Origin: a virus
Reading direction: 5' to 3' (one strand)
Virus record (IMG/VR): IMGVR_UViG_3300020596_000078
Location: 1 to 33,171 of that record
Length of the DNA stretch: 33,171 bases
In this document: positions 7,515-26,279 of the stretch, piece after piece
Layout: the number at the start of each line of letters is the position of its first letter
How positions within the stretch are numbered: the stretch's first letter is position 1
Position numbers and translations under genes: made by a program
Notes under the pieces: generated by a model
Databases searched by the model: none
What the model was told of the DNA's origin: nothing
What the model saw: the letters and a program-made list of their open reading frames with translations, nothing else

Positions 7515-7577
7515 ATAATCCTATAAAAAACCCACCCTAAAAGGTGGATGTAAAATATCCTATATCCAATTATAACA
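7515..7577 (-). promoter_or_regulatory. Late leader element 1: promoter, TAGGAT/ACATCC box, terminator-like hairpin
   Basis: Reading the minus strand, extended -10 TGTTATAAT (7577-7569) sits right after the stop of the M23-like gene. ATAGGATATTTTACATCC follows, then stem CCACC/GGTGG (7547-7543 and 7536-7532, 6-nt loop), then six Us (7530-7525). AGGAT then serves as the RBS before the ATG at 7514. GGAT-N7-ATCC could pair as an alternative small hairpin. One of five similar leaders. Confidence 0.65.
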
Positions 7578-7578
7578 C

Positions 7579-8058
7579 TTAGCGTGAAAATAAATGTTGA
7601 GCGTGAGGAGTCTTGGTGATATCAACAATACGCCCTGTTTTATCCTTCGCCTCAATCCCTAAATTATACCCAGTAGAGTTTCCAGAAGACCCAGTTGTAC
7701 CAATCAATGCCCCACCCTCTAACACTTTCCCAGGCTGTGCAGAGACACCTGATAAGTGCTGAAAGATCATCGACTCACCCTCTGGATTTACAACCTGTAC
7801 CATGTTCCCGTACCCGCTATTTTCTCCCCTTGGTCCTCCAATAGGTCTTGCCCTGTCATACGTCTTTACAACCCCCCATTTCCCAGGAGGTAACGCAACA
7901 GGAGTATTTACAGGAGCTGCAAAGTTCGTATCTCGAGCATATCCCCCAGAATAAATCTCCACATTAGGATTATAGTTTCCAGCGTGTTGAGTGACTCTAT
8001 ACGGTTGAGGCAATATCCCATTCTGAGTCTGTTGAGCTTGAGGAGCTTCTTGAGACAT
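7579..8058 (-). CDS. Degenerate M23 (LytM-like) peptidase-fold virion protein
   Basis: The C-terminal part matches the M23 metallopeptidase layout: NFAAPVNTPV (residues about 45-54), GYGNMVQVV (82-90), FQHL (99-102), IGTTGSSGNSTG (119-130). Active M23 enzymes have HxxxD and HxH zinc ligands. Here the first pair is Ala41/Asn45 and the HxH is Asn132-Leu-Gly134; only the QHL histidine survives. Hydrolysis of peptidoglycan is therefore unlikely, and a structural or cell-wall-binding role is more plausible. The ATG given (8058) has no Shine-Dalgarno. The open frame extends to an ACG at 8163 and encodes the same N-terminal module as the 716-residue protein, so the real protein may be 194 residues. 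It follows the 250-residue virion gene. Confidence 0.7.
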   Translation of the reverse strand: MSQEAPQAQQTQNGILPQPYRVTQHAGNYNPNVEIYSGGYARDTNFAAPVNTPVALPPGKWGVVKTYDRARPIGGPRGENSGYGNMVQVVNPEGESMIFQHLSGVSAQPGKVLEGGALIGTTGSSGNSTGYNLGIEAKDKTGRIVDITKTPHAQHLFSR

Positions 8059-8059
8059 T

Positions 8060-8163
8060 TGAGAGGCAATAAACTGATCAGCTTGTACAGGGTCAGCCCC
8101 TTCAGCAATAGCATACGCCTTAAAATCTCGTACTTGCTGTGGATTAGTAAAGTCTACTGGCGT
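8060..8163 (-). repeat. Diverged copy of the 716-residue gene's 5' coding module, with ACG at the start position
   Basis: This 104-nt segment aligns without gaps to 6923-7026; 46 nt are identical (8060-8105 and 6923-6968). It encodes PVDFTNPQQV...EGADPVQADQFIASQ in frame with the M23-like gene. The other copy starts with ATG; here the matching codon is ACG (8163-8161). An in-frame TAA lies two codons upstream of it. No ATG, GTG or TTG occurs in between. Confidence 0.85.
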
Positions 8164-8906
8164 GGTTTACCCCAGCCCTGCACATACATCGCATTCGCAT
8201 CAAATGCTGTTTTGCGTTCTTGATCTGCTGTCTGACTAATCCGATCAAGCGCATTCTTAAAACTTCCTTCTTGCACTGCTAACTGTTCAAGCCGTCCTTG
8301 CTCTGCGTTTGAGAGTGTTGCACCAGTTGACTGATTCGCCAGTAATCGTGATAACTCCATTTGGTTTGCTTGACTCCATTGAGCATTTTGAGCTGCATTT
8401 GCAATGGTCATCGCATCATAGGATTGAAGCCATGGTTGAGTCTCTTTTAACTGTTGAGCTTGTTCTTGACCAACAGCAGTATTCTGATTCATTTGTGCTG
8501 TGTTAAGAGCTGAATTTGTGTTTCCAGAAGCTTGTGATGCAACGGCGAACTGTTGCTGTAACGGTGCGCCTTGGGATTGTACGATGCGATCTTTTTGACC
8601 TTGGGTCAATAGAGAGTTACTGGTAGCAGAATTGACAGATCCTGGCAGTGCAGAAATCTGATTGCCAATCATCTGAGTAATTCCGTTTTGTTGATCTGCC
8701 TGTCCTTGTAAAAAAGGGATATTATTTCTGTTTGCATATTTTTCTTGAAGCTGGGGAACAGATGCCTGCCCGTTGAGGAAGGTGGAAAATGAATCATTAA
8801 AAGTACCGTAGTCACTTTTTTGTTGAGATAATGGTGAAGCAGTAGGAGTAAATCCAACATCGAAAGATCTAGCGTAGTTATCAGGAGTTGTGTAGTTGAG
8901 AGGCAT
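8154..8906 (-). CDS. Gln/Asn/Ala-rich internal-virion-like protein
   Basis: The 250-residue protein is rich in Gln, Asn, Ser and Ala and predicted mainly helical, with no Cys, membrane segment or enzyme motif. Stretches such as QGAPLQQQFAVASQASGNTN and ALNTAQMNQNTAVGQEQAQQ look like the extended helices of podovirus internal or ejection proteins. The order, directly after nozzle-like genes and before the M23-like and 716-residue genes, supports a virion core role. It is first after leader element 2 and has TAGGAT about 10 nt before the ATG. Its 3' end overlaps the upstream extension of the M23-like frame by 10 nt. Confidence 0.65.
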   Translation of the reverse strand: MPLNYTTPDNYARSFDVGFTPTASPLSQQKSDYGTFNDSFSTFLNGQASVPQLQEKYANRNNIPFLQGQADQQNGITQMIGNQISALPGSVNSATSNSLLTQGQKDRIVQSQGAPLQQQFAVASQASGNTNSALNTAQMNQNTAVGQEQAQQLKETQPWLQSYDAMTIANAAQNAQWSQANQMELSRLLANQSTGATLSNAEQGRLEQLAVQEGSFKNALDRISQTADQERKTAFDANAMYVQGWGKPRQ

Positions 8907-8978
8907 AAAATGTATCCTAAAACAAAAATCCAGTCAAGATAGACTGGATGTAACGAATCCTAATCATGAATTATAACA
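8907..8978 (-). promoter_or_regulatory. Late leader element 2: promoter, TAGGAT/ACATCC box, terminator-like hairpin
   Basis: TGTTATAAT (8978-8970) directly follows the TAG of the 73-residue gene. TTAGGATTCGTTACATCC follows, then a perfect 8-bp stem ATCCAGTC/GACTGGAT (8949-8942 and 8935-8928, 6-nt loop), then UUUUUG, then TAGGAT as RBS before the ATG at 8906. GGAT-N7-ATCC would compete with this stem for ATCC. Confidence 0.7.
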
Positions 8979-9200
8979 CTAGACAAGAGTCACCGCATAC
9001 CAGGTTTCACCAGACCAAATAGATAAAACATGTGTGTCTAAACTAAACCATACAGGATACACAGTTCCTGCTACTGGTCTGTCTGCCGATAATCCAAACT
9101 TTACGGCTGCCAATCCCTGATCTAAATGCCGTGGTTTCACCGCCCCATTAGCAATATCTAGCTGAGTAATTTGTCTTTCTACTACTGTATCTACACCCAT
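8979..9200 (-). CDS. Small tail-associated protein
   Basis: The 73-residue protein starts 10 nt inside the end of the 1231-residue gene (AGGAGACAAGATGGGT, with a good RBS AGGAG), so it is coupled to it. The motif ITQLDIANGAVKPRHLD followed by FGLSADRPVAGTVYPVWFS and IWSGETWYAV resembles the short 'ANGAV / DGSTWYALT' strips found at ends of phage tail-fibre proteins and small fibre accessory proteins. A structural role is inferred. The stop is immediately followed by the late leader element 2 promoter. Confidence 0.7.
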   Translation of the reverse strand: MGVDTVVERQITQLDIANGAVKPRHLDQGLAAVKFGLSADRPVAGTVYPVWFSLDTHVLSIWSGETWYAVTLV

Positions 9201-12200
9201 CTTGTCTCCTCTTGGTCATCAAACTCTGTTACTGCTTGAATAATCTTTACAGGAACTCCAGAGGTAGAAAACAGATCAACTGCGCATTGAATTTCTCTTA
9301 CTTGTTGACGGAAAATACCCCGAACTTGGGTAGCTCCTAGCGTACTTTGTGTCTCTAATATTCTCCAAGAAGATTCACGATCTGCCTTAAATTTAACCAC
9401 TACCGATTGACCAGCCTCTAGTGGTTCAAAGTCTACTCTAAAAACAAGCGGTAATTTATTTTGCGTTAGTCTGCCATAGTCGGTGATAAGTAGTTCAATC
9501 GTAGCAGAGGCATAACAATCATTGGTAACAGACACCGTATCAATGCCGTATACATTACCATTCTGCCATCCGATATAAAGAGATTGCCCTGCTGGAAATA
9601 CAGAACCGATACGTACTGTTGCGCTCTGTTGATCTCCAATAGAAAGAGGGTAGTCAAATCCAAGTGAGTTTGGATACTCTGAATGTAGTTTCCCATAGCT
9701 ATATACGCCTTGATGAATAGTTGTTGAGTTTGTGTTAAGTGTCGAGCCAAAATGAAGCATGCTTCTCCACATAGTCATCGCTCCTGGTGCTGTTTCTGCG
9801 TACGTCTTTTTTCCAAGTAACGGAATCTGTTTTATTTTTTGTGTTTCTCCCCCACCGTACGCTAAAAGATTTCCCTCATATCCTGCAATAACATACAGAA
9901 TACCCCCAGCTCCAGTCATTGCATTTACTCCACCCTCTAGAACATCAATGATTGTATTTGGTGAGGAAACCCCAGCTGTATCAGATGATCCATCCCACAG
10001 AAAGATTTTTCCCTGATCAGTATCCGTGATTGAACTTCCTTTCCATACTCCAATGGCGATGTAGTCTCTATACGTTGTAAAACAACGAACACGGTAGCCA
10101 GCAGGAAGAGTGATCTGATGTGGATTGTAAATATTACCAGCTTCCAACTTTGCCACATATCGCTCATTTCCTATCACTAAAAAGTTAAGAAATTGTGTTA
10201 TTGGGTGGTATATATCAGATACAAGAATCTGAAAAAATGTACTCAATGTTGTCCCTGTTGTTAACGAAAGCCAAGGCGTACTGGTGTCTCCTTGCATTTT
10301 ATTTAGTGTTGATGTAACAATTGTTCCATCGGCAACAGTAGAATAGATATGCAGATGATATACAGCTGTCAATACAGGTCTGGAAACAGTGGGAAACACC
10401 ACCTCATATAGTCCTGTGTGAAGATCGGCGTTTGCTATTGTAATCGTATTTTGCTCACGATTTAAGCCGTCATGAATAACAAATGTCCAGTTTCCTGTTC
10501 CCACAGCAGCAATGTTGACCTGAACAGATTTTAACGGCTCTTTTGTTGGAATAAAACTTCTTCGGTTGTTTGTTGATTCCGATATTGACGTAAGTAATGT
10601 GTACGTCTGCCCACCACTAGATACAATTTTCACATCTTGATCAGCCCTGGTAGTAAAACCAGAAAAACCCACATCAGAGGAATATGTTGGTGTTCCCGTT
10701 GCTGTTAAATCTGCGTTTGTTGTGTATGTCTGGGAGTCTAAGACGTTTCCATCTAGTTTCCAGTACCCTGAAAGGTTCGTTTCAACACCTTCTAGCACTC
10801 TGTCATTGTATAGTGCTAATATCGTCTGGGATCGTTGTGCATTCCACAGTCTTACGTCATCCATGCGACCATTTAAAAAGTCTTTTGCAGCACCAGCGCT
10901 GTCGTAACTCGTTGCGAGTGCAAATCGTGCAGTAGAGTTAAATATTGCCGTCATTATGCCTGTTTGAGTTCCCAATAGACTGGCGTTTTTGTAAAAACTT
11001 GCAGTTGATGTACTTGCGTCCCAGCTGACTGCGTAGCGACCCCACTGAGCAGTCTGTATAATATTTGTAATATCTTGCGTGTATGTTTCAACATTGATTC
11101 CATCGTTAGAAATCAACAACCGCATGACATAGCCGGTCACATTGGAAAGGGTGGTGTCCAAGATAGATGTCGATGCAGGAGTCGTTGTTCCAGTATTGAC
11201 CGAGGAGTATTTTGTCACAATATGTCCATTTCCACCTAACCCATTTGCTGTCCCATTGTTGCCACCCAGAGCTTTTATCTGGTTTGTTCCGTATGTTCCA
11301 CTCTGAAATCCGAGATTGATGCACCCAGCACTAGAATCACCGCCAGCTCCTTGATCCCTATCGACCAGCTGACCTACTTGACCACTCACGTCAATCAGCC
11401 CTGAAGCTCCAAATACAAGGGTAGTTCCGTAGATATCTAATACGCCTCCGCCTGTTGCGCCTCCGCCTGTCCCTGGAACAAATCCGGTGTCCCCAATACC
11501 ACCACCACCTCCACCAGATCCGAGATTCATTGACGAACCGTCCGCTGCATCATAGAGAGTAGATGCGCCGATTCCGACTCTTCCGCTTTGAGGACTTCCG
11601 CCTGCTAAAGATCCTGTTGTTCCAGCTGTCGCATGAGCAGCTCCACCGCCACTATTTCCACCCTCATTTATTTCTCTTTCAGATCCACCACCACCGCCAC
11701 CTCCATTAGCAGCATTCGTTATGCCACCTACACCAGTGGGACTTTCACCTGCTTGGCCAGTCTGATTAGACCCGTAACTGCCACCGGCATTCCCTCCAAG
11801 ATATCCGCAATTGACTGCGGTTATCGTTCCGTTTACCGTGAGTGTTCCACTGTACACAAACGACAGAATACCACCCACACCGTTTGATGGTGGATTCCAT
11901 GATTTTGCTGTCCAGGTTACGCCAGCGTTTACAGTCACATTAGTGTATTGTTTGCGTACAAGTACCTGCGCCTTATGTACCCCAGAGGTACTAAAAGAGA
12001 AGGTTAAAGCATCTGTGGTGGTAATAGTTCCGGCGGTATAAGACTGAATCTTTGTTTTCTGATACGTGCTTGCTCCAGTTCCTTGCATTTGAATGATGAG
12101 AATAAGCTGCCCAGCTTGAAAAGACGCATTTGTGGCACTGAGCGTGTGTGTAGCTATAGTTCCAGAACATTGCGAATCAGTGTTTGTCTCTGTGGTGTTA

Positions 12201-12886
12201 GCACTGATAACTCTTGCCCCGTCTGAACCATCACCAAACTGGTTCGCAGAGGTTGTTATGTCAAATTTGAAGCTTCTTTGGTTTCCTGACTCATTCCACT
12301 TACTCATCAGCGTTTGTACCTCTAATGATGCTGGAAGTGATGTTAATTTAACATAGCTTTCCATTGCTAGATCAAGCGTAATACTGAGAGAAGCCTGGTC
12401 TGCAATAGAGGCATATTGAGAAGACGATCGTACAAATAGAGCAGATGACGGGTTAGTCGGTTCTCCGCCCTCAGACTCTAAAAATCCGTCATAATACACA
12501 CCAACTGATTTTGCGAAGCTTTTTCTTCCAATTGTCGTATTTTGAGCATAATACAGATTTTCATCTTCAGCGAAGTACGCCATTCCATTCCCAGAGCAAT
12601 TAGGTGAAATGTGATCAATAGACCATACATTTGACACATCTTTCTTATACACATACCCAGTATTTCCTTGAAAATATTTATTAGAACCAGCCGTGTCCAT
12701 CCACATAATTAAATCAGCGATAATTCCAGCTGCTTCTTGTTGTGTTTTAGGGTTTACTGTGGATTGAGCAGGATCTGATCTGAAATCAATACCCCGAAGA
12801 AATGCGAAGGTGTGTTCACTCCCAGCTTTAAGAGAGTCCCCAATTCCGCCAACAAAACTGACAGTTGGTTGAAGCTTCTTTGACAT
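9191..12886 (-). CDS. Giant tail-nozzle-like protein with LamG domain interrupted by a Gly-rich module
   Basis: 1231 residues. Residues 1-135 (VGGIGDSLKAGSEHTFAFLR ... YFAEDENLYYAQ) and about 880-1120 (ERYVAKLEAG, GKIFLWDGSS, GILYVIAGYEGNLLAYGGG, YIGWQNGNVYGID) look like blades of a beta-propeller, as in podovirus tail tubular/nozzle proteins. Between them is a LamG/concanavalin-like lectin domain: first half about 146-212 (SSALFVRSSSQYASIADQAS), second half about 585-700 (WGRYAVSWDASTSTASFYKN; GRMDDVRLWNAQRS). This lectin is itself interrupted by about 370 residues, including NVTVNAGVTWTAKSW and a Gly-run-rich region (about 360-560). Gene order (adaptor upstream, internal proteins downstream) supports a nozzle; the lectin probably binds host glycans. 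The exact role is inferred. Confidence 0.75.
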   Translation of the reverse strand: MSKKLQPTVSFVGGIGDSLKAGSEHTFAFLRGIDFRSDPAQSTVNPKTQQEAAGIIADLIMWMDTAGSNKYFQGNTGYVYKKDVSNVWSIDHISPNCSGNGMAYFAEDENLYYAQNTTIGRKSFAKSVGVYYDGFLESEGGEPTNPSSALFVRSSSQYASIADQASLSITLDLAMESYVKLTSLPASLEVQTLMSKWNESGNQRSFKFDITTSANQFGDGSDGARVISANTTETNTDSQCSGTIATHTLSATNASFQAGQLILIIQMQGTGASTYQKTKIQSYTAGTITTTDALTFSFSTSGVHKAQVLVRKQYTNVTVNAGVTWTAKSWNPPSNGVGGILSFVYSGTLTVNGTITAVNCGYLGGNAGGSYGSNQTGQAGESPTGVGGITNAANGGGGGGGSEREINEGGNSGGGAAHATAGTTGSLAGGSPQSGRVGIGASTLYDAADGSSMNLGSGGGGGGIGDTGFVPGTGGGATGGGVLDIYGTTLVFGASGLIDVSGQVGQLVDRDQGAGGDSSAGCINLGFQSGTYGTNQIKALGGNNGTANGLGGNGHIVTKYSSVNTGTTTPASTSILDTTLSNVTGYVMRLLISNDGINVETYTQDITNIIQTAQWGRYAVSWDASTSTASFYKNASLLGTQTGIMTAIFNSTARFALATSYDSAGAAKDFLNGRMDDVRLWNAQRSQTILALYNDRVLEGVETNLSGYWKLDGNVLDSQTYTTNADLTATGTPTYSSDVGFSGFTTRADQDVKIVSSGGQTYTLLTSISESTNNRRSFIPTKEPLKSVQVNIAAVGTGNWTFVIHDGLNREQNTITIANADLHTGLYEVVFPTVSRPVLTAVYHLHIYSTVADGTIVTSTLNKMQGDTSTPWLSLTTGTTLSTFFQILVSDIYHPITQFLNFLVIGNERYVAKLEAGNIYNPHQITLPAGYRVRCFTTYRDYIAIGVWKGSSITDTDQGKIFLWDGSSDTAGVSSPNTIIDVLEGGVNAMTGAGGILYVIAGYEGNLLAYGGGETQKIKQIPLLGKKTYAETAPGAMTMWRSMLHFGSTLNTNSTTIHQGVYSYGKLHSEYPNSLGFDYPLSIGDQQSATVRIGSVFPAGQSLYIGWQNGNVYGIDTVSVTNDCYASATIELLITDYGRLTQNKLPLVFRVDFEPLEAGQSVVVKFKADRESSWRILETQSTLGATQVRGIFRQQVREIQCAVDLFSTSGVPVKIIQAVTEFDDQEETRWV

Positions 12887-13860
12887 TATGGTGCCTCAGT
12901 CAATGTAGTTCGCCAAGCCTCTGGAATGTACCCGTTTTTGTTTATATGAAGTCTTGTAAGCTGGTTGTTTGATCTTCCTTTGTTTTTATACTCATTTAAT
13001 ACACCTAGAACGCCTCCCTTTATTCCACCACCTCTGTTTGGGTTTCCATCATCTCCTGTGTAAAAGTAGTTCATGTATTCTTGCGCTCTAGAGGCATCTC
13101 TTCTCGGCCCTCTATAGTATGCAGCAGCTGCTCTATACGGAATATATTCATGTAGTTCTTCTGGAAGTTCAGGACTTTGTGCGATAACAAAAGTACTGCC
13201 TGTTAGTGTGCTTTCTTCAAAAAAAGACTCGAGGGTAATTGACGTAGCAGACGTGTATGCAGAAATTCTATACCAGTTTCCAATAGGAATAGCATTTGCA
13301 TCTGTCTGACAAAACCATCTTCCGATCATTGATGAGGTAAATGAGGTAGTAACACCCGTGACGATCTGCGCATTTTGTGTAACACTTACCGTCCCACTTG
13401 TATAGTCAGTAACACTTAAAGCTTGTGGAAGAAAGTTACCTACAATTGTTCCTGCACGTACTGCTTTTGGTGTAGGATATATACCAAAATCTGATTGTCT
13501 AGGGAATACGTACTGCGGAAAGTCTCCAGAATAGTTGATTTCTTGAAGACGATCCCACTGAAGTTGGGAGTTAATAACTGTGAGTGGAGGAGTGATGTTT
13601 CCTGTTGAAATAGTGACGGACTCAAAGCTTAAAAACCCTGGTGGATAGTGATAAAACTTTTGACCGATAACAGTGTTGAATGTTCGAGGAATTGGCTGTG
13701 TTTTATAATTCTTGAATAGAGAAAACATGAACTGAATTGTAGAGTTAATGTTGCGTGAAAGAAAAACAGGTGTTGTAGAAACGGTACTTGTAGAAACAGT
13801 AGACGAGTCAATACAAAGGTCGATTGCTGCTTGTAAAAGAGTGCTGTATGTTTCTCTCAT
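12886..13860 (-). CDS. Head-tail adaptor / tail tubular A-like protein
   Basis: I chose the ATG at 13860 (324 residues, MRETYSTLLQAAIDLC) over an in-frame ATG at 13890, because it lies 2 nt after the GH5 gene stop and has GGCGG upstream. The helical N-terminus followed by QFMFSLFKNYKTQ, the phrase FGIYPTPK and the C-terminal helical EYIPYRAAAAYYRG recall phage adaptor proteins that join portal to nozzle. A central segment (about 155-235: SGTVSVTQNAQIVTGVTTSF; WYRISAYTSATSITLE) is an Ig-like beta insertion common in environmental phages. Its stop overlaps the ATG of the nozzle-like gene. The functional call comes from order and composition. Confidence 0.65.
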   Translation of the reverse strand: MRETYSTLLQAAIDLCIDSSTVSTSTVSTTPVFLSRNINSTIQFMFSLFKNYKTQPIPRTFNTVIGQKFYHYPPGFLSFESVTISTGNITPPLTVINSQLQWDRLQEINYSGDFPQYVFPRQSDFGIYPTPKAVRAGTIVGNFLPQALSVTDYTSGTVSVTQNAQIVTGVTTSFTSSMIGRWFCQTDANAIPIGNWYRISAYTSATSITLESFFEESTLTGSTFVIAQSPELPEELHEYIPYRAAAAYYRGPRRDASRAQEYMNYFYTGDDGNPNRGGGIKGGVLGVLNEYKNKGRSNNQLTRLHINKNGYIPEAWRTTLTEAP

Positions 13861-13862
13861 AA

Positions 13863-15998: not shown

Positions 15999-16177
15999 AA
16001 ACCGCCTCCGTCATAGGTTCTATCTATGTGTGAAAGAGCTATTTCTGATCCGTCATATGTTCCAGAACTATTATACAGATTATCTGTTGCAATAATTGGA
16101 ATTGCACCTTCTTCATCCCAATTTGTAGGAAAGATCTGGGTATTTTCGTAGTCAGTGGGATAAATCGTTTCTGGCAT
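15995..16177 (-). CDS. Small protein upstream of the GH5 gene
   Basis: The 60-residue acidic protein (MPETIYPTDYENTQIFPTNW...) is not recognised. It is the first gene behind late leader element 3: its ATG comes directly after the U-run of the hairpin, with no free Shine-Dalgarno except GGGTGG inside the 3' arm of the stem. Its stop overlaps the GH5 start as ATGA, so it may mainly act to load ribosomes onto the GH5 gene, or be a small fibre component. Confidence 0.65.
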   Translation of the reverse strand: MPETIYPTDYENTQIFPTNWDEEGAIPIIATDNLYNSSGTYDGSEIALSHIDRTYDGGGL

Positions 16178-16229
16178 AAAAAAACCACCCTTATAGGTGG
16201 ATGTAACAAATCCTAGGCTTATTATACCA
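16178..16229 (-). promoter_or_regulatory. Late leader element 3: promoter, TAGGAT/ACATCC box, terminator-like hairpin
   Basis: TGGTATAAT (16229-16221) overlaps the stop codon of the 61-residue gene (GTG GTA TAA). CTAGGATTTGTTACATCC follows, then stem CCACC/GGTGG (16200-16196 and 16189-16185, 6-nt loop) and seven Us, then immediately the ATG at 16177. The only possible ribosome-binding purines lie in the stem, so the hairpin could control both transcription and translation. Confidence 0.7.
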
Positions 16230-16407
16230 CTTCCTTTTCCTTTAACTGGAGTTTTTCAATCTCTTTAGCAAGCAAAAATATAGCCTCAGTCAGTTTAACT
16301 TTATCAATCTTTCCACGCCTGTTAATATCCTTTATTGTATCCTCATCTGTTTGATCAGAAGGAACGTAGATGTCAAAAAGTGCGAATAGTTTATGCTTGA
16401 GGTTCAT
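16222..16407 (-). CDS. Small charged hypothetical protein
   Basis: Using the ATG at 16407 gives 61 residues (MNLKHKLFALFDIYVPSDQT...), a Lys/Glu-rich helical protein ending KLQLKEKEVV. An ATG at 16479 in the same frame would overlap the preceding gene much more, so I prefer 16407, which overlaps it by 17 nt. No strong RBS is seen. The stop codon forms part of the -10 box of late leader element 3. Function not recognised. Confidence 0.55.
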   Translation of the reverse strand: MNLKHKLFALFDIYVPSDQTDEDTIKDINRRGKIDKVKLTEAIFLLAKEIEKLQLKEKEVV

Positions 16408-16900
16408 ACGGTTTATCTGCCATTCCTGTCTTTTGGAGAGCATCGCCCAAAGCCGATCCTGTATGTATCGGTGATTCATCTATTGGTTCTGGTAAGTCTA
16501 ACATTCCAAACTTCTCTACAACTCCAAGCCAGATCTTAGGAAACCAATTTCCCCACAAGGTAGCATCATTTGTTCTGATTTGTTCACTTTCAGCATGAGC
16601 AAGCTTTTCATCTCGAGTTCGGTAGACCTTAGAGTCTTTCAACCATTTTGCATCAGAGTATTCATTGATCAACCGTGTAATATGATCTTCCGTAAATCGC
16701 TCGGCTTTCCATCGCATCATGTGTGCAATTCCTTTTCCAAACCCGATGTCTTTATCTTTTCCAGGCACAAGCGTCTTTGAAGATTGTGTGCCATATTTAT
16801 CAGTCCAGAAAATAACGTCCTCAGACATCTGATTCTGTATAGCAATAGTGTCCATTGAACGGGCAGTCTGCTCTCGAGCGTACTGATCACTTGTTGACAT
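16391..16900 (-). CDS. Hypothetical virion-region protein
   Basis: The 169-residue soluble protein is Trp/Asp/Lys-rich (TLWGNWFPKIWLGVVEKFGM near the C-terminus) and has no Cys motif or membrane segment. AAGGAT lies about 5 nt before the ATG. It lies among small genes between the decoration proteins and the GH5 fibre. The N-terminal half (DQYAREQTARSMDTIAIQNQ) is helical. I do not recognise the family; a structural or assembly role is only a guess from position. Confidence 0.65.
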   Translation of the reverse strand: MSTSDQYAREQTARSMDTIAIQNQMSEDVIFWTDKYGTQSSKTLVPGKDKDIGFGKGIAHMMRWKAERFTEDHITRLINEYSDAKWLKDSKVYRTRDEKLAHAESEQIRTNDATLWGNWFPKIWLGVVEKFGMLDLPEPIDESPIHTGSALGDALQKTGMADKPYEPQA

Positions 16901-16902
16901 GT

Positions 16903-17166
16903 CTATCCTTTTTTGTATTCTGCTTTTACAATCAATGTGGGTTTTTCTAGTGTAATCATGCCGTATTTTGTTGAAACTGCACCCTCTATAACGTCAAAAT
17001 TAAGCTCCAAATTGTGTTCTAGGAGAAACTGTTCGAGTATTTCTTGAGGGTTTGTATTTCTGGTAGATTCCCAAGTGTCATTTACTTGTGTTTCTATTCC
17101 AACGATTCCTGACAGTTCTTCTTTTTTGTATCGTTTATCAGGTGAACCGTTTTTGTTAAATCGCAT
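16903..17166 (-). CDS. Small hypothetical protein, probably leaderless
   Basis: I place the start at 17166 (87 residues, MRFNKNGSPDKRYKKEELSG) because TGGTATAAT (17181-17173) ends 6 nt before it. An in-frame ATG at 17199 (98 residues) overlaps the preceding stop as ATGA and is the alternative; it would place the -10 box inside the coding region. Neither has a Shine-Dalgarno. The protein is mixed alpha/beta (ILEQFLLEHNLELNFDVIEG) and not recognised. Confidence 0.6.
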   Translation of the reverse strand: MRFNKNGSPDKRYKKEELSGIVGIETQVNDTWESTRNTNPQEILEQFLLEHNLELNFDVIEGAVSTKYGMITLEKPTLIVKAEYKKG

Positions 17167-17172
17167 GAGTAT

Positions 17173-17181
17173 ATTATACCA
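17173..17181 (-). promoter_or_regulatory. Extended -10 promoter, leaderless start
   Basis: TGGTATAAT on the minus strand is followed by ATACTC and then the ATG at 17166. The 6-nt spacing puts the expected transcription start at or next to the start codon. Confidence 0.5.
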
Positions 17182-17195
17182 TAATCGTTTTAACG

Positions 17196-17708
17196 TCATA
17201 ATGTTTGTGATTCAAGAATTTTTGTATATTTTTCAATCTCTTTATTAAGAAGCTTTTCCTTTACCTTTAAAGCGTCTTGTTTACTTCTTGCTGCCATCAC
17301 GTCATTTATGGCTGTTTCTTCTCTTTGCGCTACGTGTATCTCTTTTTCGCTTACCGTCTTTTCTCGCAACGCGATCTGTTCTTCTCTTTTTTCTAAACCT
17401 TTTACTTTTTCTAAACGTACAGCAAGAAGTTTTCGATCTTCTTCTATTTCTTGTCTATCCAAGTCTATTTGGACTTTCATTTTACTTGCTAAGTCGCTCA
17501 TCTGGCGAGATTTTTCAATTTCTTGGGTCATTGCAGCCGTTTGTTCGTAAAATGACGATTTCTTGGCAATAAACGACTCCATATCATTTCTCATCTGGAG
17601 TTTATCTTGATCAATCTCTTTTTGAAGCAATTCAATACGTCGATCCTCTTGTTTAATGTGGTTTACCATTTCTTGAAGATAGTTAATAGCAACTTGAGGG
17701 TCAATCAC
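17196..17708 (-). CDS. Long coiled-coil protein
   Basis: The 170-residue product is almost entirely one charged heptad-repeat helix: RRIELLQKEIDQDKLQMRND, then MKVQIDLDRQEIEEDRKLLA and EKREEQIALREKTVSEKEIH. No Cys, Gly-rich or membrane segments. Its start lies 8 nt inside the 83-residue gene, suggesting coupled translation. Coiled-coil proteins between capsid and tail genes may act as spacers, chaperones or fibre rods, but it is far too short for a tape measure of a long tail. Function unknown. Confidence 0.7.
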   Translation of the reverse strand: MIDPQVAINYLQEMVNHIKQEDRRIELLQKEIDQDKLQMRNDMESFIAKKSSFYEQTAAMTQEIEKSRQMSDLASKMKVQIDLDRQEIEEDRKLLAVRLEKVKGLEKREEQIALREKTVSEKEIHVAQREETAINDVMAARSKQDALKVKEKLLNKEIEKYTKILESQTL

Positions 17709-17952
17709 TCAACACCAGCTTTCTTGCAATCTCACGATCAAACATTTTCGGCTTACTACTGACATACTGTTCAATAAGAAGTTCGGCAACAAACAAGCCC
17801 TTAGCTTTTTTAAAAGATTTATTTTCACGAGCATGAAATGTTTCTGTTACTCCACCATAGGTAAAATCAAAGTCATTAGGAAGAGGATTAAAAACAAGTA
17901 CCTCTTTCAAGGCATCGTCTTTCGCTTTCCGTTGCAAGTCTATAGCGTCCAT
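17701..17952 (-). CDS. Small hypothetical protein, probably leaderless
   Basis: The 83-residue protein has a compact mixed fold (FNPLPNDFDFTYGGVTETFH, then a Lys-rich helix and IEQYVSSKPKMFDREIARKL). This pattern recalls small proteins encoded next to capsid genes in environmental phages, but no function is known to me. TGCTATAAT ends 8 nt before the ATG and there is no Shine-Dalgarno, so leaderless translation is likely. Its end overlaps the coiled-coil gene. Confidence 0.65.
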   Translation of the reverse strand: MDAIDLQRKAKDDALKEVLVFNPLPNDFDFTYGGVTETFHARENKSFKKAKGLFVAELLIEQYVSSKPKMFDREIARKLVLSD

Positions 17953-17960
17953 AGAAGGCT

Positions 17961-17969
17961 ATTATAGCA
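17961..17969 (-). promoter_or_regulatory. Extended -10 promoter, leaderless start
   Basis: TGCTATAAT on the minus strand begins one base after the stop of the 136-residue gene. AGCCTTCT (8 nt) separates it from the ATG at 17952. Confidence 0.5.
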
Positions 17970-17970
17970 C

Positions 17971-18381
17971 TTATGTTGTAGCACCTTTAATAATCACAAA
18001 GTTAATTAAAATAGCACCTGTTTCAGCTGTACCAGCTGCGACGTTGTTATTTTGAACGGCAATACTAAATGATCCTGCTGCCACAGTAACGACTTCAACA
18101 ACAGTTCCACCACCGTTTGATCCTGATTGCTGGGAAAGAACAACGACATCACCAATTTCGACGTTCGTATTAGTAACGATAAAAACAGCAGTTCCTTCGG
18201 CAGCCAGGGAAGCAGTGTTTGTAGTAATTGTTCCTGCCATTTTACTCAGAGTAACACCAGTTGATCTGTTTGTTGCTTGAGTAACCAATCCACCTGCGCC
18301 TGGGTTATATCCTATTTGAGTGGCGGTACGCATACCGTTACTTAATACAGCTGATGAAAATGCTTCCATTGGTAATGGCAT
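17971..18381 (-). CDS. Capsid/tail decoration-like beta protein
   Basis: The 136-residue protein has a short helical start and then a Thr/Val/Ala-rich beta domain: ATNRSTGVTLSKMAGTITTN, AVFIVTNTNVEIGDVVVLSQ, VVTVAAGSFSIAVQNN, ILINFVIIKG. I recognise this pattern from small proteins encoded beside phage capsid genes, probably decoration or tail-completion proteins; no enzyme motif is present. AAGGATTCT precedes the ATG as RBS. It is followed by a -10 box for the next gene. Confidence 0.7.
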   Translation of the reverse strand: MPLPMEAFSSAVLSNGMRTATQIGYNPGAGGLVTQATNRSTGVTLSKMAGTITTNTASLAAEGTAVFIVTNTNVEIGDVVVLSQQSGSNGGGTVVEVVTVAAGSFSIAVQNNNVAAGTAETGAILINFVIIKGATT

Positions 18382-18394
18382 AGAATCCTTTTAA

Positions 18395-18571
18395 TTATAC
18401 TTTTCCAGTTCCTAAACATGAATCACATCGTACGTTGCCGTCTAATCCTTGACCTTTACAGTCCATACAGTTGAACATGCTTCTGTCTTCCACTGGTTCT
18501 TCATGTGTTCTCAGATCCCGTAATTCTTGAGTTTCATTGAATGTTCTGCTGTTATTGTTTTTATGTGACAT
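18395..18571 (-). CDS. 58-residue DnaJ-type CxxCxGxG zinc-finger protein
   Basis: The frame runs ATG (18571) to TAA (18395), with AGGAG 6 nt before the ATG. The N-terminal half is charged and helical. The C-terminal half carries CMDCKGQG and CDSCLGTG, a pair of CxxCxGxG motifs as in the DnaJ/Hsp40 zinc-binding domain, probably binding one zinc ion. It lies between two decoration-like genes in the capsid cluster, so it may act as a small assembly chaperone or RNA/protein-binding factor. That role is inference. No J-domain is present. Confidence 0.8.
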   Translation of the reverse strand: MSHKNNNSRTFNETQELRDLRTHEEPVEDRSMFNCMDCKGQGLDGNVRCDSCLGTGKV

Positions 18572-18613
18572 ACATCTCCTATATAAGTTATTCTTTTAGA
18601 ATACAGCCAACTC

Positions 18614-19360
18614 TTAGTCTATTTGTAAGAAAATTGTAATACCTTTGGCAGATGCTGCTATTTGTCTTGTTACACCAACTCTCTGTTTGGTTGTACCGAC
18701 AGTTGCCACAGTGACTGCACCAGCTGTTCCAGATACAGTACCGACTTCAGATCCTACAGCGAATGTAGAGCCATCTGAGAGAGCGGAGACAGTACCGTGG
18801 GTTTGCACCCATCCATATTGATTCGCTGGGATTTCAAAAATAGCAACTCCGACAGCCATTCCCGTTGGGGTAGTTGCTGGAAATTGAATAACACCAGACC
18901 ATGGACTTCTCTTCATATTCACTTTTGCAGAGGTAGAGAAGGCATATCGTAATGGTCTATCTAGATACACTATTAAAGCTCCACCTGTTGTTAACACACC
19001 ACCCACTGAAGTAATTGTGTACTCATCGGCAATGGCCACAGTTCCTGCGGTGTAAACGTTAATGCTTCCACCAATAAAAGCCTCAGAGGTCACCGTGGTT
19101 GTACCATTGGTAATCTGTAAGAATCTATCACCTACTGCTCCAGCTACACCGACGGCCATGTTTTCAAATTGTGTGTCGTTCGCTGCTTCTTGTAAGAGAT
19201 TTCCCTTGACAAGCGCCGACGCTCCTGCTTTAGCATATCGAAATATCTTACCGTTATTTCCGTCTCTCATCTCTCCGATGGTATATGGGCTTGGAACATC
19301 AGTAGTTGCCGTGTAAAGATCTAGTGCTGAGAGTGTCTTTCTTCCTGTAATACTTGCCAT
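18614..19360 (-). CDS. Capsid-associated/decoration-like protein
   Basis: The 248-residue protein lies immediately after the major capsid gene. It begins with MASITGRKTLSALDLYTATT and contains GKIFRYAKAGASALVKGNLL and long Thr/Val/Gly-rich beta segments (TVAIADEYTITSVGGVLTTG; DGSTFAVGSEVGTVSGTAG). This beta-rich composition and position fit a capsid decoration or cement protein. A 6-bp hairpin (TTCGTG/CACGAA, 19391-19374) lies between the capsid stop and this RBS (AGGAAATT). The family was recognised only in general terms. Confidence 0.7.
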   Translation of the reverse strand: MASITGRKTLSALDLYTATTDVPSPYTIGEMRDGNNGKIFRYAKAGASALVKGNLLQEAANDTQFENMAVGVAGAVGDRFLQITNGTTTVTSEAFIGGSINVYTAGTVAIADEYTITSVGGVLTTGGALIVYLDRPLRYAFSTSAKVNMKRSPWSGVIQFPATTPTGMAVGVAIFEIPANQYGWVQTHGTVSALSDGSTFAVGSEVGTVSGTAGAVTVATVGTTKQRVGVTRQIAASAKGITIFLQID

Positions 19361-19407
19361 AATTTCCTATTCTTTCGTGGTTGTACACGAATTTTTATCT
19401 ATCGTTA

Positions 19408-20526
19408 TTAAGCGACAGAGGTGATACCTGTTAATTTGCCTTGTCTTCGTGGTTGAAATGACGCCATTTGACCGAATACGTAAAAGCGACTAATAATGCC
19501 AGCTTGTTCTTGCATCATTTGTTTTGCTTGATAGAAGAACCCGTGATAACTGGTTTTTGTTTCAGAGATTTGACCTTCAACAACACCTTTTTTACCTAAA
19601 GATACTGGGGAAACAAATTCTTTGAAAGATCGAGGTACTTGTGTTCTTCCGTACCATTTCAAATAGTTCTCATTCAACATGTATAAAGTTCCAGATGGAG
19701 CAGCTTTATCACGCATGATTGGGATACCTGAGTAGGTGTTTGTTCCACCGTAGCCAGCACCAGCGCCTGGTAATTTACCAGCTGTTGGGAATTGACCACT
19801 CATGGATTGATCCATGTAATTTCTTTGAACGGTTGGGGTTAAAAACTGCTCGTAGAGTGATGCCACAGTATCTCCAGTGTAAATTACTGTTGGGTTTTCT
19901 TTAGGGCCAGTATCTGAGATGGCTGATCTTAATGTAGCTAGCTTAGCTAAAGTCATCGTGCCACTAGAAGGAGTGACAGTCGCATTCAGTGAGCCATACG
20001 TTGCACGAGTTTGTCCGCCGTAGGTTAATAGGTTTGTTCCGTTATCCACAATACCCTCTAATCCCAGTGGTTGATCGTTCGTGCCTCCAATACCAAACAT
20101 CGCTAATGAAAGACCTTGCACAGTTTCATTGAGTGCATCTTCATACTCAAACGCTGGATAATCAACATCCTGACCATCTCCTTCTCGAGCAAATGCATCA
20201 GTCATGATTTCTACCATAGGCATCGTTGCGTGTGCGTCATTAAATTGGAGCTGTACGACAACGTTCTCAGATGATGAATTTAATCCGTCTAATCCGTCGA
20301 ACCATTGAAATTGAGTTCTACCGGCAATCTTGATATTTTTAATGATGGTTGGTTGTTCACCACGTCCATCACCTGAAAATTGTTGACCGTTATAAAGCAT
20401 GCGTGATGCGAATGATGGATAGTTTAAAATACCATCGACAACAGTTGCAGCAGCTCTGGCGGTACTGAAGTTGAAAACGTTTGATCCCTGAGGTGTACCT
20501 TGTGGGACGATTGATCCATTTGCCAT
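19408..20526 (-). CDS. Major capsid protein, HK97-fold type
   Basis: 372 residues from the ATG at 20526 (MANGSIVPQGTPQGSNVFNF), which has AAGGA about 6 nt upstream. An in-frame ATG at 20577 lies in the leader and is rejected. Features typical of HK97-like capsids are an extended N-arm, a spine-helix region, a Gly-rich E-loop-like part, and the late block NTYSGIPIMRDKAAPSGTLY MLNEN (P-domain and A-domain boundary). It follows portal and scaffold in the usual order. No protease domain is visible, so a separate scaffold rather than a delta-domain is used. It is preceded by late leader element 4, which fits strong regulated late expression. Confidence 0.9.
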   Translation of the reverse strand: MANGSIVPQGTPQGSNVFNFSTARAAATVVDGILNYPSFASRMLYNGQQFSGDGRGEQPTIIKNIKIAGRTQFQWFDGLDGLNSSSENVVVQLQFNDAHATMPMVEIMTDAFAREGDGQDVDYPAFEYEDALNETVQGLSLAMFGIGGTNDQPLGLEGIVDNGTNLLTYGGQTRATYGSLNATVTPSSGTMTLAKLATLRSAISDTGPKENPTVIYTGDTVASLYEQFLTPTVQRNYMDQSMSGQFPTAGKLPGAGAGYGGTNTYSGIPIMRDKAAPSGTLYMLNENYLKWYGRTQVPRSFKEFVSPVSLGKKGVVEGQISETKTSYHGFFYQAKQMMQEQAGIISRFYVFGQMASFQPRRQGKLTGITSVA

Positions 20527-20621
20527 AAATTCCTTTTTATGTAGAGCGAAATGCTCTAACAGACGTAAAAAATCCACCTGGTTGGGGTGGATGTATCGAA
20601 ATCCTAAACTGTATTATATGC
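20527..20621 (-). promoter_or_regulatory. Late leader element 4 upstream of the capsid gene
   Basis: GCATATAAT (20621-20613) is followed by TTTAGGATTTCGATACATCC, then stem ATCCACC/GGTGGAT (20592-20586 and 20578-20572, 7-nt loop) and a U-run. A second hairpin AGAGC/GCTCT (20557-20543) follows, then AAGGA and the ATG. Here the extended TG is lacking. GGAT-N8-ATCC could pair as the alternative to the terminator-like stem. Confidence 0.7.
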
Positions 20622-20640
20622 TCTTTTGGTAGCCTGTCAA

Positions 20641-21273
20641 TTAAAACCCAAACATCCGTTTTCTTAACGGTGCAACGTCACGGTCATAGTCTAACTCTTT
20701 ATTTTCTTTAGCTGGAGAGGACGGTCTTGTGCCAATGACTGGTGCTGAAGCTCCTACTGGCTCTTTGTTATATTCTTCGTAAAATGCAATTTTTGCAGAC
20801 TTTCCACCAGATACTTTTGCAAGTTCAAGTCTTGCACTAAGTCCTGCATCTGCTTGTATCTCTTCCATTGTCAATGTTTCACCTTTGTTAATCTTTTCTT
20901 GCGTTTTTGCTTCCACAGCTGGCATCTTTCCTTGATGAACAAGGTCATACCACTCTGTATCAAAAGACTTTCGTCTTTCTTCAAGCTCAGTGTTACTTCT
21001 CTGTTTCTCTAATTCCTGAACAGTCTTTTGTGTTTCTTCTCGCTCTTTCAGCTTTGCCTCTACTCGGGCATCAATATCGTCTTGTGAAATGGTGGGAATC
21101 TGTTTTTTTGCTTCATTAAAGAGTTCATCATACGTTTCTGGGGAATCTTTTCCACGCTGTTCCCATGAGTACTTTGATTTGTCTCCTTGAAGGGCAGTAA
21201 TGAGGGATTCTTTTGCAGCCTGAATAGCTTCTCGTTTAATGTTCTCTGCGTCTATTTGAGGGGTTTCAGTCAT
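20641..21273 (-). CDS. Scaffolding protein
   Basis: The 210-residue, highly charged protein is mostly helical, with a central coiled coil (VEAKLKEREETQKTVQELEK) and a basic C-terminal end (APLRKRMFGF). It lies between portal and capsid genes. These are the hallmarks of a phage scaffolding protein, whose C-terminus usually binds the capsid subunit. No serine-protease motif is seen. The ATG has no Shine-Dalgarno and lies 7 nt behind TGGTATAAT, so a leaderless mRNA is likely in addition to readthrough from upstream. Confidence 0.85.
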   Translation of the reverse strand: MTETPQIDAENIKREAIQAAKESLITALQGDKSKYSWEQRGKDSPETYDELFNEAKKQIPTISQDDIDARVEAKLKEREETQKTVQELEKQRSNTELEERRKSFDTEWYDLVHQGKMPAVEAKTQEKINKGETLTMEEIQADAGLSARLELAKVSGGKSAKIAFYEEYNKEPVGASAPVIGTRPSSPAKENKELDYDRDVAPLRKRMFGF

Positions 21274-21280
21274 GGTGTCT

Positions 21281-21289
21281 ATTATACCA
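21281..21289 (-). promoter_or_regulatory. Extended -10 promoter, leaderless start of scaffold gene
   Basis: TGGTATAAT overlaps the portal stop codon (GTG GTA TAA). AGACACC (7 nt) separates it from the ATG at 21273. Confidence 0.5.
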
Positions 21290-23177
21290 CGGGTTTATTC
21301 AGTTCATTTACAGCGCCACCACTCATAGGCATAGCGCCAGCATCTAGTGGTGTTCCGCCTGGTGAAGCAGCCATCGCTTGATCCACGGCGCTTGGTGGCA
21401 TGTTTTCCTCTTGTGCTGGCTTTTCCGTTAAATACTGTTGTATATACATCTGCGGTGATCCTTGAGCTAACATAGCCCTCAGCGCTCGTTCTTTTGGATT
21501 TGATTGCTCGGTGTCTTCATAGTAAGAAAGTGGATCACCTATTCCAAGGCTCATGTTTGTTTCAGCTTGACGCTTACGGAGCATTTTATCCACACCAGAG
21601 GCTGAGACAACAACTTCCATTCCGTTATCAACAGAGTCTCTAGAGAGTCTTGTATGAAGCACTTCCCCGTCTTTTCCTAAGATATGCCTCATGTGTGCTT
21701 TGGTGTAGAAGAGTCTAATAAACTGCATCGCCCAGTTTGCCTGCCATTCAGAACAGGCGTTAATTGTGTCTTCCACAATGTCATCAATCAGCCCGAAGTC
21801 ACCTTCTCGGCTCATCTGCTCTTGGCCTAACGTAGAGTTTGCAGAAGATAATCCTCGAGTAGCAGGGCCAGTACCCATCATTTCAAAGGCTTTTGATCGG
21901 TCATCTCCCTGCGATCGGTATTGTTGCGCAGTCGCTGGTGCTTGATCAATATGAGCGTGAGCGTTGTTAATAGATGATCCTTGTGGAATATCTAGCCCTA
22001 AAACCTGATCAACATCATAAATATTGATGTTGTCTAGGGTTGTCTGAGGAATGGCGTTTGTATCAAACATGTCCTTGCCACGGGAACGAATATTCATATC
22101 TTGAATGATAGAACCGTTGAGGTTGATAGAGTCCTGAAAGTCTAGTATCTGCTCTACCCTAGACGTTTCACTAATTGGATGCTCTCCCATGTTTTCGTAC
22201 ACCATAAAGAAATAGGGTTTTTGGGGGTCTTGAAAGTAGTTTGAGTACTCTGTTTCAGTATTTTCATCACTTTTAGATAGAAAGATATCTTCAATTGTGT
22301 ACGCATTTTTTTCAACCATTTCCTTACTAAAGAGTTTTTTGCGACCCTGATAATCAAAATAAGGATTTTTCATCTTCTTCAAAGGAATGTTTCCGTACAC
22401 CCACGCAACTCCATCTATGCGTTCTGTCTCTTTATCTTTCAAGACATACGTGTGAAACCACACTTCCCATAAAAGCACCATTGATGCCATCTTCGCCTCG
22501 GTATTCAGTGAGTTTTTATCCCATCCAAACTCTGCTTTGATTTCGTCTTCTTTATTTGGAAACATCAAAATAACTTCTTTAAGCGGCATTTTTGCCTTCT
22601 CTGCTACAAACCCCATGTTATTGGCATCATTGTCTGGACAGTTATGATCCCACACCATATTGTCTGGATGAACAACAGGAAACTCATAATCTCCAAATGG
22701 TCCTTTTTCAGGATTCCAAATTGCTTTTCGGCATGCGAAGAAATACAACGGCTCTTGTTTTGTCATAAGCCCTAACGCTTTTCTATTCGCTCGCTGTTTC
22801 ACATCAGAGTTGAAAACACCCGTCAGATCCTGTGCAGACTTTTTAGACTCTGGTGTTTCATCACCAGGCTTTACGGTAAGGTCTGGCATACGAGATAACG
22901 CAATAGGTTTCTGCCTAGAAATAGCCTCATTGATCACATTTTCTCTATATGGTCTCGACTTGTTCGACGTTTTTTGAAGTGCTTGTCTCCCGTAGTAATA
23001 CTCGAGATTCTTCTGTTGTCTGTTGTAGAGATTTTTTTCTGTGTAAAAAGCAATAGAGGCACGAATATGTTGCTTCACAATTTTAACAATTTCATCGTCA
23101 TCAATATCAAGCCGCATCGGGTCTAAAAATTCTTCTGGTTGAGCGTTAAGATCGGCGGTTGGAAGGTCTTGAATCAT
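21282..23177 (-). CDS. Portal protein
   Basis: The 631-residue protein has the general pattern of a podovirus-type portal: an acidic N-terminus, YNRQQKNLEYYYGRQ (about residues 50-64), a wing region with YFFACRKAIWNPE and PVVHPDNMVWDHN, and a helical clip/stem region (SRVEQILDFQDSINLNGSII). It ends with a Pro/Gly/Ala-rich tail. It forms the dodecameric DNA channel at one vertex and docks the terminase. It is placed between the zinc-ribbon/terminase genes and the scaffold. The ATG follows the hairpin of late leader element 5 with no obvious Shine-Dalgarno. Confidence 0.88.
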   Translation of the reverse strand: MIQDLPTADLNAQPEEFLDPMRLDIDDDEIVKIVKQHIRASIAFYTEKNLYNRQQKNLEYYYGRQALQKTSNKSRPYRENVINEAISRQKPIALSRMPDLTVKPGDETPESKKSAQDLTGVFNSDVKQRANRKALGLMTKQEPLYFFACRKAIWNPEKGPFGDYEFPVVHPDNMVWDHNCPDNDANNMGFVAEKAKMPLKEVILMFPNKEDEIKAEFGWDKNSLNTEAKMASMVLLWEVWFHTYVLKDKETERIDGVAWVYGNIPLKKMKNPYFDYQGRKKLFSKEMVEKNAYTIEDIFLSKSDENTETEYSNYFQDPQKPYFFMVYENMGEHPISETSRVEQILDFQDSINLNGSIIQDMNIRSRGKDMFDTNAIPQTTLDNINIYDVDQVLGLDIPQGSSINNAHAHIDQAPATAQQYRSQGDDRSKAFEMMGTGPATRGLSSANSTLGQEQMSREGDFGLIDDIVEDTINACSEWQANWAMQFIRLFYTKAHMRHILGKDGEVLHTRLSRDSVDNGMEVVVSASGVDKMLRKRQAETNMSLGIGDPLSYYEDTEQSNPKERALRAMLAQGSPQMYIQQYLTEKPAQEENMPPSAVDQAMAASPGGTPLDAGAMPMSGGAVNELNKPVV

Positions 23178-23230
23178 AAAAATACCAGCTCTACGGCTGG
23201 TTGTATAAATAACCTTGTTGAATTATATCA
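23178..23230 (-). promoter_or_regulatory. Late leader element 5 upstream of the portal gene
   Basis: TGATATAAT (23230-23222) is followed by a weaker box (AAGGTTATTTATACAACC), then stem ACCAGC/GCTGGT (23201-23196 and 23189-23184, 6-nt loop), AUUUUU and the ATG at 23177. Same order and spacing as leaders 1-4 but the most diverged box; no Shine-Dalgarno outside the hairpin. Confidence 0.6.
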
Positions 23231-25935: not shown

Positions 25936-26246
25936 TTAAAAAAATCCTCGTTTAATCCTGTTTGTCTCCAGTGATCTTCTAGGGCTTTGTCCCCACTTTT
26001 GATGTCTTGGATCTGTTGTTCTGTTTTAAAAGGAATCACTCCAGGATGTATTAATTTCTTTTGTGGTCTTGACTTTGTGTCTTCAATGATTTCGTCTATT
26101 GATGCTGTTTGTATATCAAGTGGTGGTGGTGTTGAAGGAAACACGACGTGGTATTTCTGATGTATTGAAGAGAGGATTTTGTGTTCTTGACCAGATATTC
26201 GTCCGATGATGTAAAAAAGAACAGCAGTAAAAAGAAATGAAAACAT
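25932..26246 (-). CDS. Membrane-anchored hypothetical protein, first late gene, probably leaderless
   Basis: The 104-residue protein has one N-terminal membrane segment (FSFLFTAVLFYIIGRISG) and a soluble tail with Pro-rich and acidic stretches. It is the first gene of the minus-strand block. TGGTATAAT ends 7 nt before the ATG and there is no Shine-Dalgarno, so it is a clear leaderless candidate. Function is not recognised. Confidence 0.65.
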   Translation of the reverse strand: MFSFLFTAVLFYIIGRISGQEHKILSSIHQKYHVVFPSTPPPLDIQTASIDEIIEDTKSRPQKKLIHPGVIPFKTEQQIQDIKSGDKALEDHWRQTGLNEDFFK

Positions 26247-26250
26247 CTGC

Positions 26251-26279
26251 TTGATTATACCATTAAATGTGTGTATTCT
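26251..26279 (+). promoter_or_regulatory. Candidate plus-strand promoter of a small RNA
   Basis: TTGATT (26251-26256), 17-nt spacer, TATTCT (26274-26279) preceded by TGTG. The predicted start is about 26286. It overlaps the divergent late promoter. Confidence 0.4.
26254..26262 (-). promoter_or_regulatory. Extended -10 promoter for the late block, leaderless start
   Basis: TGGTATAAT with a TTTAGA (-35-like, 17-nt spacer) upstream, followed by CAAGCAG and the ATG at 26246. It overlaps the -35 of a plus-strand promoter at 26251-26279, so the two divergent starts may exclude each other. Confidence 0.6.

Follow-up and report, generated by a model that had tools for sequence, protein, structure and literature searches.

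What is known of late gene control in phages mainly concerns new sigma factors, RNA polymerases of the phage itself or a single processive antiterminator. For example, late or middle phage genes lie behind terminators in the systems of lambdoid Q and N, Thermus P23-45 gp39 and Xp10 p7, factors whose single action alters RNA polymerase for the terminators that follow; P23-45 has extended -10 promoters. In the BglG/SacY/LicT systems a promoter-proximal hairpin, the sequence-specific RAT of about 30 nt, overlaps the 5′ arm of a terminator, and the two structures are mutually exclusive. Cluster K mycobacteriophages reportedly carry start-associated sequences, short repeats that immediately precede several of their genes. 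In the Bacillus subtilis pyrG attenuator (Meng, Turnbough and Switzer 2004, cited in PMC4448216), the initial RNA pairs with the 5′ strand of the terminator and read-through follows. Here we describe a repeated leader element in IMG/VR virus record IMGVR_UViG_3300020596_000078, of which the whole 33,171-base stretch was analysed and is called the window below. Its late genes lie on the minus strand, and five of them are preceded by a leader in which a very short pairing competes with a terminator. The comparative evidence supports a layout other than the familiar ones: many minimal attenuators at late transcription-unit boundaries, alternating with leaderless promoters.

Read directly, all five window leaders show the same order of parts, namely the stop codon of the upstream gene, a -10 box, 6-8 nt, AGGAT, 7-8 nt, ATCC, a terminator stem, a U-run and then the gene, and all lie where the original prediction had placed them (Table 1). 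We call the transcript start segment 1, the terminator 5′ arm segment 2 and the terminator 3′ arm segment 3, such that 1 and 3 compete for 2. The 5′ arm of the terminator stem starts within ATCC, and terminator-like stems are present at all five leaders, with loops of 4-7 nt where 6-7 nt had been reported. Nearly all strong stem-plus-U-run terminators on the late strand of the window are the elements themselves. The -10 box is extended (TGnTATAAT) in four of the five; the fifth, before the gene for the major capsid protein (MCP), lacks the TG and forms part of a perfect TTGACA-N16-TATAAT. The MCP start is ATG 20526, the GTG 20577 of the open reading frame (ORF) list being upstream of it. The core TAGGAT-N-TACATCCA matches four times in the window, always on the minus strand, where 100 shuffles give an expectation of 0. 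The portal copy, earlier described as weaker, instead reads AGGTT-N8-AACC, a two-sided compensatory change of GGAT/ATCC.

Relatives, which are uncultured phages, were collected by a capsid-protein search, which yielded contigs at 71-75% identity, and by pattern scans, which added further contigs; the resulting close-clade catalogue holds 33 copies in 12 contigs, window included. IMGVR 3300005544_000015 (G008, L211/L212) is a more distant member, with 44% identity in the capsid and 48% in the portal. Among the matches listed, a broad TAGGAT-N-TACATCCA pattern run over IMG/VR gave mostly single chance matches; stricter patterns worked. One pattern match, L200, had a hairpin that did not overlap ATCC and was treated as chance. 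Close relatives have the element before their portal and capsid genes at every inspected site that lies within the contig. In all 33 copies the CC of segment 2 sits at the base of the terminator stem, so the two hairpins are always mutually exclusive. The earlier proposal that GGAT/ATCC removes the terminator 5′ arm is thus borne out for its leaders 2 and 4, and its exemption of leaders 1 and 3, where the pairing was thought only to adjoin the stem, falls away because the overlap is universal in the clade. The U-run contains 5-8 T in 8 positions. Covariation of the close-clade terminator stem is 0.460 compared to 0.125 ± 0.031 when shuffled, and slid registers reach 0.08 at most. Stem positions 3-5 vary freely while positions 0-2 (CCA/TGG) are near-invariant, as expected for the CC if it has a second partner besides segment 3. 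Segments 1 and 2 read GGAT/ATCC in 32 copies and GGTT/AACC in one, a pair too invariant in this clade to prove itself, and the case for it therefore rests on deeper relatives.

These came from a portal alignment of 47 contigs with identities down to 29%. Selection of deep elements required an extended -10 box with a terminator following at 12-34 nt and was blind to the 1:2 pairing, which gave 37 copies; identical elements were removed, some loci are near-duplicates and make the copies statistically non-independent, and the distances and pairings depend on the terminator chosen by energy, with a few arms misplaced. An ORF of at least 50 aa begins within 75 nt after 36 of the 37. The order of promoter, hairpin, U-run and gene is kept in these relatives, while the first pairing appears as GGCT/AGCC, GGGT/ACCC, GGAC/GTCC, GAGT/ACTC, CGG/CCG and others. 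Complementarity between the terminator 5′ arm and the segment following the -10 box is seen in 31 of 37 copies, compared to 16.8 ± 2.5 (maximum 25.4) when leaders are swapped between contigs, and none of 1000 leader-swap trials reaches the observed mean pairing score. Similarly, in a set of 13 copies anchored on the loop motif NWTTWA only, 88.5% of cells are paired and 16 two-sided changes occur; covariation is 0.840 versus 0.199 ± 0.058 for shuffles, 0 of 500 of which match it, and all slid registers collapse.

We also took a census of all strong terminators in the phage family on both strands, counting a 1:2 pairing when it had at least three Watson-Crick pairs, of which at least two were GC, a threshold that was chosen after examples had been seen and applied equally to the controls. 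In another count, an extended -10 box lies upstream of 67 of 103 terminators on the late strand and 4 of 57 on the opposite strand. Among promoter-linked late-strand terminators of the census the pairing is found in 60 of 77, compared to 11.9 ± 2.8 (maximum 19) for shuffles, whereas the opposite-strand terminators lacking a promoter have it in 10 of 45, which is the chance level (10.8 shuffled). About half of the 60 come from the close clade, so that the leader swap and the loop-anchored set, which are nearly free of it, provide independent support. The original prediction had named lack of conservation in related phages as one outcome that would overturn a family-wide leader with a terminator-competing pairing, and the pairing survived that check: sequence comparison shows it kept throughout the family, including copies in which the paired bases are completely different. 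Two sequence features of an attenuator are likewise present, as an intrinsic-terminator hairpin and U-run stand between promoter and start codon in the 33 close and 37 deep copies, which were selected on it, and an alternative pairing that excludes the terminator stem is kept by compensatory change in the leader swap, the loop-anchored set and the census. The element is a repeated leader of one architecture, with two mutually exclusive hairpins and selection for both pairings.

The 1:2 hairpin has a stem of 3-4 bp and an A/U-rich loop of 4-9 nt, mostly 5-9. Within one genome, L254, stems of GGGT, GGGT, GGG and GGCT surround a kept loop AATTTA, and in another, L230, AGGT, GAGT and AGGA surround a kept ATTTTA. 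Such change of the stem around a constant loop indicates that the stem is selected for pairing and not for sequence, and the loop may be the recognised feature. It also bears on the idea that GGAT-N7-ATCC is a palindromic DNA operator that spans +1 to +16 beside an ordinary terminator and binds a repressor or activator of the phage. Repeated intergenic operators do exist in phages, such as the phiC31 CIRs and the L5 stoperators, and GGAT/ATCC is near-invariant in 32 of the 33 copies of the window's clade. Conserved half-site sequence and spacing within a genome, as in those operators, are nevertheless not found: the half-sites differ inside L230 and L254, the spacing runs from 4 to 9, and the 3′ half overlaps the terminator stem. 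Two copies, moreover, have no promoter, and we regard an operator as very improbable. These copies belong to tandem attenuators placed before a single gene (L254:10275-10370, L234:12078-12165 and L223:4327-4432), and the promoterless second modules in L254 and L234 retain pairing (GGGT/ACCC at L254:10345; GAGG/CCTC at L234:12144). They suggest that the module acts as RNA and speak against any explanation that depends on the start site, on the 5′ end or on double-stranded DNA.

A leader for translation or mRNA stability, in which 5′ hairpins shield the message, or sequester and expose a ribosome-binding site close to the AUG, and the U-run is a ribosome landing pad, would fit the many copies with AUG directly after the U-run and the resemblance of GGAU in the window's clade to the phage's own AGGAU sites. 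We consider it improbable. The AGGAT taken at first for a ribosome-binding-like box is exchanged in relatives for GGCT, GAGT, CGG, AGGT and others with pairing kept, and segment 1 there is not Shine-Dalgarno-like (GGCT, GAGT, CGA); the hairpin and U-run are retained in deep copies whose start codon lies 24-69 nt downstream, which argues against a purely translational role; several capsid leaders have an AAGGA-type site of their own; tandem leaders are internal and not 5′-terminal; and many late genes of these phages are leaderless. Of the two options first offered, antitermination or translation control, the distant start codons favour transcription. A segment 1 of its own is found at most terminators, tandem ones included, which argues against processive antitermination and favours a local form, though a polymerase-bound factor may act in addition.

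TGnTATAAT boxes in late regions fall into two main classes, a leaderless class in which ATG follows the box at 5-9 nt (mode 6) and an element class in which AGGAT follows it at 5-11 nt (mode 7). Of such boxes in the deep loci, 127 are on the late strand and 6 on the opposite one, and leaderless promoters, widespread in the family, number 43 there with mode N6 (25 of 43). From this leaderless register (ATG mode 6 nt after TATAAT) we infer that transcription of the elements starts at or beside the A of AGGAT. Apart from the perfect MCP copy, the -35 box is not enriched relative to shuffles (2.94 vs 2.99). On the plus strand at 28515-31187, an upstream AAGGACTAACC/T-ATG sequence is common to several early genes and forms another repeated start-site context, different from that of the late genes. 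Within ORF 16903-17199, a leaderless promoter of Table 1 occupies the 5′ part, and the gene probably begins at 17166.

Table 1. Leader elements and leaderless promoters in the late region of the window
Feature	Position	Strand	Parts and remarks
Element 1, portal gene (ATG 23177)	23178..23230	minus	TGATATAAT 23230-23222; segment 1 GGTT 23214-23211; segment 2 AACC 23202-23199; terminator stem-loop 23201-23184; AUUUUU tail 23183-23178; compensatory GGTT/AACC copy
Element 2, major capsid gene (ATG 20526)	20567..20640	minus	-35 TTGACA 20640-20635; TATAAT 20618-20613; GGAT 20604-20601; ATCC 20592-20589; terminator stem-loop 20592-20572; U-run 20571-20567
Element 3, 60-aa gene (ATG 16177), then 711-aa gene	16178..16229	minus	TGGTATAAT 16229-16221; GGAT 16213-16210; ATCC 16202-16199; terminator stem-loop 16200-16185; U7 16184-16178
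Element 4, gene with ATG 8906	8919..8978	minus	TGTTATAAT 8978-8970; GGAT 8960-8957; ATCC 8949-8946; terminator stem-loop 8949-8928; U-rich tail 8927-8919
Element 5, gene with ATG 7514	7525..7577	minus	TGTTATAAT 7577-7569; GGAT 7560-7557; ATCC 7549-7546; terminator stem-loop 7549-7530; U-run 7529-7525
Leaderless promoter TGGTATAAT-N7-ATG, first late gene, no attenuator	26246..26262	minus	Contrast class setting start-site register
Leaderless promoter TGGTATAAT-N7-ATG, gene 20641-21273 between portal and capsid (probable scaffold)	21273..21289	minus	Same arrangement before this gene in L126, L127, L128, L130, L131, L163
Leaderless promoter TGCTATAAT-N8-ATG, gene 17701-17952	17952..17969	minus	
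Leaderless promoter TGGTATAAT-N6-ATG within 5′ end of ORF 16903-17199	17166..17181	minus	L127 homologue (12275) arranged alike

Taken together, we consider it moderately probable that the elements are repeated local transcription attenuators at gene boundaries, in which the terminator is the default and the 1:2 pairing is a 3-4 bp antiterminator that probably needs a factor. A host-type RNA polymerase would start at or next to the A of AGGAT, about 6-8 nt past an extended -10 box situated at or just after the previous stop codon, and 30-47 nt later would reach an intrinsic terminator with a GC-rich stem and U5-8. Segment 1, the first bases transcribed, could pair with segment 2 into a small hairpin of 3-4 bp that would exclude the base of the terminator stem (2:3). 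Were this hairpin stabilised, most likely by a phage or host factor reading the loop, polymerase would pass and the late structural gene would be expressed; the same terminator would also stop transcripts arriving from the upstream gene. Termination, antitermination and the existence and identity of the factor are thus inferred. The 1:2 hairpin has a mean energy of -1.6 kcal/mol and the terminator one of -11.0 kcal/mol, which makes termination the predicted default state, and a 3-4 bp hairpin is unlikely to hold off the terminator unaided, hence the stabilising factor.

Several observations weigh against local attenuation as set out here. The 1:2 hairpin is weak, should by itself hardly prevent termination and needs a putative factor; 17 of the 77 promoter-linked late terminators have no 1:2 pairing detectable at the census threshold; in the window's clade the pair is near-invariant, with a single compensatory copy (26 of 500 by shuffle); and two scans of genome contigs for the host gave no relative. 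The weakness of the hairpin fits tuning better than switching, as would be the case for a constitutive insulator, in which the terminator ends upstream-gene transcripts and the 1:2 pairing makes it leaky by a fixed amount for the embedded promoter, with no regulator and no timing. The gene-boundary position agrees with this: of the 69 elements where an upstream stop codon was found, 53 have its end between -13 and +5 relative to the -10 box. The near-identity of strong late-strand window terminators with the elements fits as well. Read-through RNA from upstream would, however, also carry segment 1, so that pairing alone cannot distinguish a gene's own transcripts from foreign ones; leakiness by itself poorly explains the two attenuators in tandem ahead of a single gene (L254, L234, L223), and the loop is conserved within a genome. 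We judge an insulator unlikely. As for the stop codon, a terminating upstream ribosome covering segment 1 was also considered and rejected, since the distance from stop to segment 1 is mostly 18-20 nt, probably beyond the footprint, and is not constant. Promoter and terminator adjoin in every copy, which would also suit recycling, where the terminator frees the RNA and the polymerase stays on the DNA to restart at the promoter about 45 bp upstream; indeed, post-termination polymerase diffuses along DNA and re-initiates at nearby promoters in vitro (PMC6978380). A restarted polymerase would nonetheless reach the same terminator, and recycling leaves selection for the 1:2 pairing and the promoterless tandem terminators unexplained, and we regard it, too, as very improbable.

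For local attenuation, a protein encoded between terminase (23588-25003) and portal (21282-23177), on the same minus strand, is of interest. This small zinc-ribbon protein (23228-23503) with two C-x2-C pairs has no Pfam match, occupies the same position in G008 and most deep relatives checked, where it measures about 76-104 aa, and in L234 and L236 is longer and contains repeated C-x2-C pairs. It is a candidate regulator by synteny only, or a head protein. Element 4 is also present at orthologous genes in contigs G003 (L214:112) and G008 (L211:19447). Elsewhere on the minus strand, 18395-18571 encodes a 58-aa CxxCxGxG protein that resembles anti-TRAP weakly in Pfam, below the cutoff (E 0.003), and has no homologue among the loci searched. 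A hairpin TTCGTG-GTTGTA-CACGAA lies between capsid and next gene (19374-19391), with a U-run on the plus strand only, and at 27389-28280 on the plus strand are two adjacent paralogous early genes, both starting MQRPNNLKVGD, with no clear domain.

Named phages gave no DNA-level match to the window. Among them, its MCP and portal match only MW202566 and TM7 phage DolZOral124_53_65, at 24-30% identity, and the element was looked for in both and is absent. The TM7 phage, the sole named kin with a stated host, has a few TGnTATAAT-N6-ATG promoters. Outgroup terminase relatives L258 and L261-L267 have no elements. It is possible, though rather doubtful, that a phage lineage perhaps infecting Patescibacteria gates its structural genes singly via mini-attenuators, with a trans-acting phage factor that reads the loop and leaves the stem free, and with many local switches replacing one processive late antiterminator. 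If the hosts are Patescibacteria, the element would offer an early look at how phages of these bacteria control transcription, and would also be a compact genetic part. A pairing of 3-4 bp is, to our knowledge, the smallest selected antiterminator, and short DNA templates would allow a test of how such a weak hairpin can have an effect.

No Rfam family out of 4227 reached threshold in the window, L254, L253, L234 or L230, and no description of the element was found in the literature, where open-access papers were covered. The element is like the cluster K start-associated sequences in being a short repeat before several genes of a phage family, and differs in that its sequence is free and its structure fixed; we know of no competing terminator/antiterminator pairs described for those sequences. 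With Q, N, gp39 and p7 it shares the late-gene setting and, for P23-45, extended -10 promoters, whereas most terminators in this family, including the second of a tandem pair, have their own competing pairing (60/77). The 1:2 hairpin overlaps the terminator 5′ arm just as the RAT does, yet it consists of 3-4 bp and a loop of mostly 5-9 nt with free stem sequence; a conserved hairpin of the RAT type is lacking, and no BglG-type (CAT-domain) protein was seen in a search that was not exhaustive. The likeness to pyrG is that an intrinsic terminator lies early in the transcript and the 5′ strand of its stem can pair with the nucleotides transcribed first. In pyrG, segment 1 is made by non-templated G addition when pyrimidines are short. 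In contrast, the phage segment 1 is templated, has many sequences (AGGAT, GAGT, CGG and others) with no long run of the kind used for homopolymeric slippage, can be internal instead of 5′-terminal (L254:10345, L234:12144) and stands before many genes of one phage. The principle of initial RNA pairing with the terminator 5′ strand is thus already known from pyrG, and its repeated late-gene phage version with a free stem sequence appears new to the literature we found.

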